Under the pieces are notes generated by a model. The model ran no database searches, was not told the DNA's origin, and saw only the letters and a list, made by a program, of their open reading frames with translations. From Ectopseudomonas mendocina (GTDB lineage: Bacteria > Pseudomonadota > Gammaproteobacteria > Pseudomonadales > Pseudomonadaceae), in contig NZ_JADTQG010000010.1 of assembly GCF_016008875.1 (NCBI RefSeq), positions 124,001 through 188,000 on the forward strand: DNA of 64,000 nt, given 5' to 3'. Below, one piece after another: positions 56,540-58,072 of the stretch. The position numbers were made by a program, and so were the translations under genes. How positions within the stretch are numbered: the first letter of the stretch is position 1; each line of letters begins with the position of its first letter.

Positions 56540-56675
56540 GGCGAGATTCTCCGGGTCAATGGAGCATAACAGTAACCTATTGCTACACAATTGTACCGGC
56601 ACAGATGCAATCTGTTTTTCTGATACGGCAAGGTCTGCGGGAAAAACGCGGCGTCGCCGCTATCTTCAATGCATA

Positions 56676-56890
56676 AAAAACCCCGGACGCGCCGTAATGC
56701 TGTTCACATAAGAAGTGGTCGCAGGCGATTAGTCCCCTCGCCCCTGAGGGGAGAGGGTTAGGGAGAGGGGGAAACTGGCAGTCTTGCGGAATTTTCAGCC
56801 CTCTCCCCCAGCCCCTCTCCCATAAATGGGAGAGGGGAGCCAAGCGCGTACAACCTTAAGTGAACAGCATTGCGGACGCGCCGGGGTTCG
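56676..56890 (-). terminator. Terminator of the OmpA operon, split by an insertion
   Basis: Outer arms AACCCCGG (56679-56686) and CCGGGGTT (56881-56888) belong to one hairpin, followed on the minus strand by a T-run. Without the 178-base insertion and its 11-base duplication, the sequence would be a compact GC hairpin with a 5-base loop. Confidence 0.7.
56695..56872. mobile_element. MITE-like element, 178 bp, with terminal repeats and target duplication
   Basis: The ends TAATGCTGTTCACATAAG and, inverted, CAATGCTGTTCACTTAAG match at 16 of 18 bases. CGGACGCGCCG is duplicated on both sides (56684-56694 and 56873-56883), an 11-base target duplication as made by IS4-like transposases. The inside holds only G/C-rich inverted repeats (AGGGGAGAGGG and the reverse), with no coding frame. 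It sits in the loop of a terminator. Confidence 0.8.
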
Positions 56891-56909: not shown

Positions 56910-57722
56910 TCAACGCTCTGCGCCAAGCTGACCTCGCTCGTCGGAGAAGACGATCTCCACCCGACGGTTCTGCGCCCGACCGCGTGCCGAGGCGTTCTCC
57001 GCGACGGGAAAGTCCACGCCGTAACCGACCACCTGAATACGCTTGGCATCCACGCCCAGATCAACCAGCAGATCGGCCACAGCCTGCGCTCGCGCTCGTG
57101 AAAGCTCGAGGTTCTCGGCGGCGTCACCGGTATTGTCGGTATAGCCCTCCATACGCACACGCCGCTGCGGGTTGAGCTGCAGGAACTGCACGAGCTTGAG
57201 CACCGTGCGGTTGGCTGCCGGCTGCAGGTCGGCGCGGCCGGCATCGAACAGCATGTCGCCCAGGGTCATCACCAGGCCGCGCTCGGTCTCGCTGGTGGCG
57301 AGGCTGACCATCTGCTCTTCCAGCCAGCCGTTGTGCTGTTGCACGCTAAGCAGCTTGGCTTCGCGCAACGTCAGCTGCAGGCGCTGACGCTCCAGCTCGA
57401 GCTTGGCAGCGCGCTCATGATTGAGGCTGATTTCGCTGTGTTGTCGGGCGATATCGGCATAGCGCTGGCTGAGATAGGCGTAATGACGCACGTCGTCGCC
57501 ACTGCCCCAATAGCTGGACAGCCGCTCGGCGCGCGCCAGTGACTCACCTGCGCGAATCACGTCCTTGGGCGCGGCGCGCAGGACATTGGGATCTTCCTTG
57601 ACCGACTGGAAGCTCAGGCGCGCCTCTTCCAGCGCTTGATCGCTTGCCGGCTGGTGGGCTGCACAACCACTGAGCAAGGCACCAGCCAACAACAGGCCGC
57701 CGAGGTAACCGAAAGCCTTCAT
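56910..57722 (-). CDS. OmpA-family lipoprotein with DUF4398 region
   Basis: A 270-residue lipoprotein (LLSGC, near residue 20) with a helical DUF4398-type N-terminal half and a C-terminal OmpA domain. The peptidoglycan-binding pattern is GYTDNTGDAAENLELSRARAQAVADLL (abbreviated) near residue 195, ending in GRAQNRRVEIVF. It probably tethers the outer membrane to peptidoglycan. It overlaps the upstream DUF4398 gene by one base. Confidence 0.88.
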   Translation of the reverse strand: MKAFGYLGGLLLAGALLSGCAAHQPASDQALEEARLSFQSVKEDPNVLRAAPKDVIRAGESLARAERLSSYWGSGDDVRHYAYLSQRYADIARQHSEISLNHERAAKLELERQRLQLTLREAKLLSVQQHNGWLEEQMVSLATSETERGLVMTLGDMLFDAGRADLQPAANRTVLKLVQFLQLNPQRRVRMEGYTDNTGDAAENLELSRARAQAVADLLVDLGVDAKRIQVVGYGVDFPVAENASARGRAQNRRVEIVFSDERGQLGAER

Positions 57723-58072
57723 CACATGGCTCCCAGTTGCTGGCGCAAACGGCCGATACGCTGGTTGAGCTCGGTCAGCTGCTCGCGGCCCTTGCCGTTG
57801 AGATGCTCGGCCTCGGCCAGGCGCGCATCGAGCTCGGCCTGCTCGGCCAGTTGGCGTGCCTGCTTGTTTTCACCGTCCTGCATGGCTGCCTGGGCCTGGG
57901 CGAACTTGTCTTCGGCCTGGCGCAAGGACGCGGACTGCTCGCTGGCTACGCCCAGGGATTTGGTCTGTGCCAGGGCCTGCTCGGTCAGACGCAACTGCTC
58001 GGTGGGCGCAGGATCGCTTGCGCAAGCCGCCAGGCCCAGCGCCAGCAGCACGGGAAGAGTTCGATTGATCAC
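57722..58072 (-). CDS. DUF4398 small lipoprotein
   Basis: A 116-residue protein with a lipobox (LGLAAC) after a short signal, then a helical, charged body typical of DUF4398 (QAEDKFAQAQAAMQDGENKQA). GTG at 58072 was taken as start because the signal peptide begins there. It precedes the OmpA-family gene, and the two share helical-domain type, so their products may work together. Confidence 0.8.
   Translation of the reverse strand: MINRTLPVLLALGLAACASDPAPTEQLRLTEQALAQTKSLGVASEQSASLRQAEDKFAQAQAAMQDGENKQARQLAEQAELDARLAEAEHLNGKGREQLTELNQRIGRLRQQLGAM

Follow-up and report, generated by a model that had tools for sequence, protein, structure and literature searches.

The window considered here is the whole 64,000-nucleotide stretch of Ectopseudomonas mendocina DNA under analysis, in which the gene for an OmpA-domain/DUF4398 lipoprotein is followed by an intrinsic terminator interrupted by a short mobile element (Table 1). 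An earlier note, made from the letters of this DNA alone, had described a 178-base MITE-like element with 18-base terminal repeats and an 11-base target duplication in the terminator of the OmpA operon. The element is indeed a 178-bp non-autonomous MITE with many copies, its 11-bp target duplication (TSD, CGGACGCGCCG) is exact, and the gene upstream of the terminator does encode an OmpA/DUF4398 protein. The terminal repeats (TIRs) have the length described but are not perfectly identical: 16 of 18 bases are shared by TAATGCTGTTCACATAAG and the right end read in reverse complement, CAATGCTGTTCACTTAAG. Compared with AATGCTGTTCACTTAAG, the left end differs at one internal base and the right end matches throughout (17/17 of the searched core). 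With 3 mismatches allowed, the TIR pair gives 2 matches in the window against 0.10 expected, and the TIR pattern occurs 54 times in the whole genome at up to 2 mismatches, against 2 for a reversed control pattern. The open reading frames that overlap the element encode at most 101 amino acids, which is below the size of a transposase of this family, so no transposase is encoded. The element is thus a MITE by every usual mark: it is short, has TIRs and a TSD, and lacks a transposase. By itself it folds into one long hairpin (−100.5 kcal/mol, z −9.1). A search of Rfam returned only sub-threshold matches, far under the gathering scores and mostly to microRNA models, which we took as chance matches arising from a G+C-rich hairpin. 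In plasmid and phage collections the matches were all partial and confined to the interior repeat, none of them spanning 80% of the query.

Table 1 Features of the interrupted terminator and its surroundings (positions in the window)
Feature	Position	Strand	Basis
T(U)-tract of the OmpA-gene terminator (A6 on the plus strand)	56675–56680	−	Sequence; conserved in the G012 empty site
Split terminator stem half with TSD copy 1	56681–56694	−	Inverted repeat I1 with 56873–56888
TSD copy 1, CGGACGCGCCG	56684–56694		Exact direct repeat
Left TIR, TAATGCTGTTCACATAAG	56695–56712	+	One internal mismatch to the IS4-subgroup TIR
178-bp MITE, single long hairpin	56695–56872		Folding; homologous copies
Interior CCCTCTCCC/GGGAGAGGG repeat	56748–56837		Inverted repeats I2–I6; found elsewhere without TIRs
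Right TIR, CAATGCTGTTCACTTAAG on the minus strand	56855–56872	−	17/17 of the searched core
TSD copy 2	56873–56883		Exact direct repeat
TSD copy 2 with the other split-stem half	56873–56888	−	Inverted repeat; empty orthologue L089
OmpA-domain/DUF4398 lipoprotein gene, upstream of the terminator	56910–57725	−	PF00691 E 9e-23; PF14346 E 3e-12

Joining the flanks and removing one TSD copy restores a AAAAAACCCCGG-ACGCG-CCGGGGTT hairpin, with the U-tract on the downstream side of the minus-strand OmpA/DUF4398 gene. The earlier note had read this empty site from the duplication and had placed the insertion exactly in the loop. The terminator is split as it claimed, but not exactly in the loop: the cuts fall within the stem, some 3 bp below the loop on either side, and the 11-bp TSD therefore takes in the loop and the innermost 3 bp of both arms. 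The reconstructed site is borne out by a sister genome (G012, locus L089), which carries ATAAAAAACCCCGGGCGCGCCGGGGTTTTCAGG uninterrupted at the same place, with the same genes on either side and an OmpA gene that is 88% identical. Using joined flanks, we searched for six further MITE sites in three relatives. An uninterrupted terminator was found at the orthologous place of L009 in G012 and G028 (and also in G008, with other DNA nearby), of L012 in G012, and of L017 and L007 in G028; for L005 and L006 no spanning empty site was found in the three relatives searched. According to the earlier note, a lack of other copies together with the absence of empty sites in related strains would have spoken against its reading; an intact terminator was instead present, in at least one relative, for five of the seven MITE sites examined. 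Judged by empty sites in relatives, the MITE has been mobile.

Other copies are numerous. The source genome (G000, 5.1 Mb in 44 contigs) gave 48 BLAST matches to the MITE, and 24 of the 41 loci examined there have a recognisable end pair and 17 do not; among 20 loci looked at in G012, four further copies have both ends. These make up 28 rows, of which 21 were classified (TSD with at most 2 mismatches) and seven were left out for want of a matching TSD. The target is a terminator-like hairpin with a strong tract at 11 of the 21 sites, a hairpin with a weak tract at four, a tract with a weak hairpin at one, and neither at five. A hairpin is centred on the TSD at 15 of the 21 sites of the two genomes, which answers the question raised in the earlier note of whether there are other copies and whether they too sit in hairpins. 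Four of the five sites with neither feature (L002, L015, L021 and L177, all in G000) represent one constant REP-like position, where the TSD starts with CGCTCCC or CGCTCCT, or the reverse complement, and no tracts flank it; we take this repeat to be the Pseudomonas REP. The fifth, L179, is neither a terminator-like hairpin nor a REP. A REP-targeting IS would have all its copies in REPs, and with 4 of 21 sites REP-like the MITE does not fit that description. L177 (G000:C1:73968-74062 region) and L179 (G000:C1:167859 region) hold shorter elements, 99 and 108 bp long, whose ends are the same. L011 (G000:C6:49727-49916) has CGCTTTTCTGCG on one side, its reverse complement on the other and no direct TSD, as would result from an inversion of the loop subsequent to insertion. 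Two contigs end within a MITE copy (G000:C30:1-80 and G000:C31:14874-14931), and the element thus breaks the assembly.

The earlier note had proposed the terminal repeat as a probe for the parent IS but had not named the parent; it is the IS4 subgroup of the IS4 family, present in other members of the genus and not in the source genome. There, neither a family search for a PF13006 (Nterm_IS4) transposase nor a search with the end pattern found a parent, and the MITE is therefore an orphan in this genome. A PF13006 transposase is encoded in 18 of the 199 genus genomes sampled. At the genus loci the IS4-subgroup insertion sequences measure about 1.42 kb and have exactly TAATGCTGTTCACTTAAG as their end; a sister IS type in the genus carries TAATGCCAGTCAGTTAAG or TAATGCCGATCAGTTAAG there. 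The proteins of both types carry PF13006 and PF01609 (E 8.6e-28 and 2.4e-25, respectively, for the L064 transposase). Ends identical to those of the MITE were found on IS4-type elements read at both ends at 14 genus loci. The likeness is limited to the ends, the subterminal DNA of the MITE showing no resemblance to that of the IS, so that mobilisation in trans is only inferred, and the unlike interior indicates that the MITE is not a simple deletion derivative. Among the fetched loci, that interior relates to a G+C-rich repeat that occurs elsewhere without TIR pairs. The CCCTCTCCC-type repeat was also seen alone, without IS4-type ends, in the source genome, in related genomes and in several other genera, and resembles the box C of E. 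coli. Shorter elements of 549–764 bp with IS ends were found at L068, L073, L087, L172 and L173. In the available part of its description, the IS4 subgroup has ends of the form -AATR---, direct repeats of 10–13 bp and a length of 1400–1650 bp (De Palmenaer, Siguier and Mahillon 2008, PMC2266710), and the MITE, with TAATGCTGTTCACATAAG/CAATGCTGTTCACTTAAG and a TSD of 11 bp, fits what is given there of the ends (-AATR--------WTW----) and the TSD (10–13 bp).

We then compared the MITE sites with those of IS4-subgroup elements. The latter came from the 199 genus genomes, from 398 genomes of the phylum (18 with the family), from the best 80 loci of a scan of named genomes, which included Pseudomonas, Xanthomonas, Acidovorax, Grimontia and Thaumasiovibrio, and from 14 hand-picked E. 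coli records. Ends were called by script and kept if they matched at 13 or more of 17 positions in a first set (89 loci) or at 12 or more of 17 in a second (104 loci, ten of which had been examined before). Four rows with wrong or doubtful ends (L071, L132, L161 and L163, L132 also being a weak family match) were excluded before counting; for L140 the first end call was excluded and a later one used. From 139 IS rows, 18 at contig ends or repeat sites and 14 without a matching TSD were removed, leaving 107 classified sites. Terminator-like hairpins account for 91 of these; three are hairpins with a weak tract, six are tracts with a weak hairpin and seven are neither. Among 23,957 random flank positions, 0.23% are terminator-like and 2.9% are hairpins without a tract. 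If targeting of terminators is taken to mean an intrinsic terminator cut around its loop, it is met by 91 of 107 IS sites and 11 of 21 MITE sites under the full rule, which the remaining 16 and 10 miss. The IS sites are distinct, but their hosts are not all independent, since several copies come from one genome or species (Acidovorax temperans, for example), and the named scan favours close relatives.

The IS4 copies of E. coli illustrate the limits of the preference. Eight of 14 copies, or six of ten distinct places, are in terminator-like hairpins, adjoining bamD, eno, glcA, nupC, rpoD and metK. The place in K-12, one plasmid place, ygeA and yicI are weak or poor and fail the terminator rule, the yicI place being nevertheless a palindrome, though imperfect, with short runs of A and of T. 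As sites of IS4 thus lie partly outside terminators, the preference is strong but leaky: it is not universal, and the background used here consists of random flank positions and not of the sites of other IS families. The contrast with this background could also be inflated by counter-selection of insertions in genes, at sites that lack a hairpin. Two E. coli records (L325 and L326) have IS4 at the same place in yicI with the TSD in opposite orientation, possibly as independent insertions at an intragenic hot spot. In distant members of the phylum, L133 and L135 have the ends GAATGGCACTAA(C/G)TTAAG, PF13006 matches below the curated cut-off and sites that are short A/T-flanked palindromes, hinting that the terminator habit is older than the subgroup.

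The geometry of the sites is precise. In the first 66 distinct sites (48 IS, 18 MITE), a mean of 6.06 of 8 possible pairs form when the centre is set at the middle of the TSD; moving the centre by one to eight whole bases leaves a mean of no more than 2.47. Runs of A lie 9–13 bases to the left and runs of T 9–13 bases to the right of this centre, and the gap between tract and TSD is 3 at 45 of 77 sites on each side. At each of stem positions 2–9 the observed pairs exceed the maximum of 2,000 shuffles, while pairing at the outer tract positions 10–13 does not exceed the shuffle maximum; for the MITE sites alone covariation is weak with the centre fixed at the TSD middle, the set being small (n = 18). 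TSD length, which ranges from 9 to 14, rises with the distance between the tracts (r 0.56, reached in 0 of 20,000 permutations), the mean distance being 16.8 for TSDs of 10 bp and 20.0 for TSDs of 14 bp. The relation persists when sites are compared only with others that have identical ends (68 sites, r 0.56, 0 of 5,000 permutations), and TSD length is independent of the gaps (r −0.03). Its correlation with loop length is weaker (r 0.29), as the length of a loop is ambiguous to call. Both gaps are near 3 at a fraction of 0.47 of the sites, which lies within what shuffled lengths give (mean 0.40, maximum 0.59); the decisive tests were the correlation with tract distance and one of variance.

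These data lead us to conclude, with high confidence, that the MITE belongs to the IS4 subgroup and was, by inference, moved in trans, and that the transposase selects terminators and similar hairpins. The element, its TSD, the empty orthologous sites, the occupancy of terminators across the family, the centring, the covariation and the relation of TSD to hairpin size were all observed directly. In the mechanism that we propose, the 178-bp MITE would be a non-autonomous derivative of the subgroup, mobilised, as we infer, by a transposase that binds the ends TAATGCTGTTCACTTAAG and that the source genome no longer has. This transposase would pick intrinsic terminators or similar hairpins, that is, an A-tract, a G+C-rich stem, a loop, the other stem and a T-tract. 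On each strand its cut would fall some 3 bp inward of the tract, and the 9–14 bp duplicated would thus be the loop and the inner stem. The target might be read as a two-fold palindrome or as an extruded hairpin, the position of each cut being set by the arm on its side; this last point is our reading of the TSD-length rule. The presumed benefit would be a harmless address beside a gene end, with the terminator largely rebuilt, because a self-complementary insert flanked by a palindromic TSD extends the stem that stands on the same U-tract.

It is conceivable that the MITE belongs to some other mobile family, or that it is a REP-like or box-C-like repeat whose ends resemble those of IS4 by chance. 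Its interior is common to repeats that lack such ends, and no IS4-type transposase was found in the source genome; however, the ends, the TSD length (10–14) and the type of target all match the IS4 subgroup, and 15 of the 21 MITE sites are the same kind of hairpin, which makes a different origin look far-fetched. The earlier note had also left undecided whether transposition was targeted to the terminator or merely tolerated there. Under tolerance, insertion would occur anywhere and the copies seen today would be survivors in harmless 3′-intergenic hairpins. Most target sites are at gene ends, where this would put them, as genic insertions would be lost, and the E. coli sites include two genes listed as broken, ygeA and yicI. 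Nevertheless, survival alone does not predict that hairpins are centred on the TSD to within a base or two, that the 3-bp tract gap recurs on each side or that TSD length follows hairpin size, and terminator-like positions make up so little of the random flank positions (the 0.23% given above) that, even if all of them lay in the intergenic DNA, assumed to be about 12%, they would be only about 2% of intergenic positions. We therefore think tolerance alone very unlikely; stem covariation and a TSD length that tracks hairpin size point to targeting, in line with the 91 IS sites, the hairpin-sited MITEs and the empty sites.

A separate question is whether the transposase reads a hairpin at all. 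It could recognise a consensus in duplex DNA, made of an A-tract, a G+C-rich core and a T-tract, in which case the hairpins would be incidental, most sequences of this make-up being terminators. The tracts are in fact the strongest columns of the alignment (A 0.80–0.89 at 9–11 left of centre, T 0.79–0.86 to the right), and the six IS sites with a tract and a weak hairpin would suit a consensus. However, when both tracts and a G+C-rich core are fixed, a hairpin is present at 60 of 62 IS sites but at only 9 of 30 background positions, and with both tracts and an intermediate core at 8 of 8 against 4 of 34. In a small sample of 176 kb, AAAA-N-TTTT gave 21 overlapping matches, eight of them with a paired core. 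Stem letters moreover covary beyond what column composition gives, and TSD length varies with hairpin size, both of which speak against a consensus alone. We consider a consensus alone rather unlikely, without dismissing it. That IS4-subgroup transposases recognise terminators as folded or two-fold symmetric hairpins, with cuts placed from the arms, as a family-wide pathway in which the stem is re-formed, is a possibility that we take seriously but do not regard as established, its chances being in our view slightly short of even. A dimer with flexible spacing that reads the duplex would also give the TSD-length rule, and extrusion of the hairpin is thus unproven.

What becomes of the terminator can only be predicted. 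With the element in place, the OmpA terminator is predicted to fold into a single hairpin without a break that leads onto U6 (−137.5 kcal/mol, z −12.1, against −82.0 for shuffles), and in 16 folded MITE sites the terminator arms retain 9 to 20 expected pairs. The idea that the MITE interior is required for this pairing was dropped: in equilibrium folding, shuffled interiors pair nearly as well, arm pairing being little changed at most of the 16 sites, and the interior is therefore not shown to aid termination. Because the palindromic loop is present on both sides of the insert, the stem becomes longer, and termination may well survive insertion, an inference that rests on equilibrium folding.

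The target specificity of bacterial transposons is commonly portrayed as weak or as restricted to one fixed sequence. Folded targets are known from other elements: group IIC introns insert beside intrinsic terminators, and IS30-type and IS1111-attC elements choose palindromic or folded targets. The introns differ from the present elements in being retroelements, in leaving no TSD and in not entering the loop, and the IS30-type and IS1111-attC elements differ in transposase family and target length. For IS4, a target rule of AAA-N20-TTT, which fits the present sites, has been given, and IS4 was reportedly found in the pheST attenuator in a 1984 paper, which fits them as well. The description of the IS4 subgroup speaks, in the part available, of a "spectacular apparent insertion specificity" (De Palmenaer et al. 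2008, PMC2266710), and its main text contains no occurrence of the word terminator. Relative to that account, here the specificity is identified as one for intrinsic terminators and a MITE is added; the specificity of the subgroup was thus already noted in 2008, and the family-wide terminator address is, as far as the available text allows us to judge, the new part. Our literature search met no statement that IS4-type elements target terminators, although it left older IS4 papers and subscription papers mostly uncovered.

Elements that target REPs offer another comparison. ISPsy8 inserts at the symmetry axis of the REP hairpin, and ISRm22, listed under the IS4 family, also targets REPs, according to the accessible portion of Tobes and Pareja (2006, PMC1525189). 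Like the present elements, these have many copies at one kind of palindrome (PMC1525189, same portion); they differ in using one repeat family per species, as opposed to the unrelated terminators of many genes found here, and the four REP copies of the present MITE form only a side class. MITEs are reviewed in PMC10969869, in the part available, as short and non-coding with TIRs and TSDs, like the present element; the terminator-like sequences mentioned there lie within MITEs, whereas here terminators are the target.

From a biological perspective, the members of a whole IS subgroup and their MITEs seem to use a common address that requires no conserved sequence, always lies at gene ends and is available hundreds of times in every bacterium. 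Terminator targeting would explain both the "spectacular" target arms and the variable TSDs of 10–13 bp described in 2008, and it raises a testable question, namely whether a DDE transposase reads DNA shape or an extruded hairpin; if true, recognition of hairpins would be a dedicated terminator-targeting pathway of the whole family. It also offers a route for the insertion of DNA at gene ends. Finally, IS4-subgroup elements may shuffle terminators as well as occupy them. Twelve of 15 IS copies without a matching TSD are flanked by a run of A to the left and a run of T to the right (L061, L080, L085, L118, L119, L169, L171, L236, L252, L255, L271 and L276), as if the halves of two terminators had been joined by recombination between copies.
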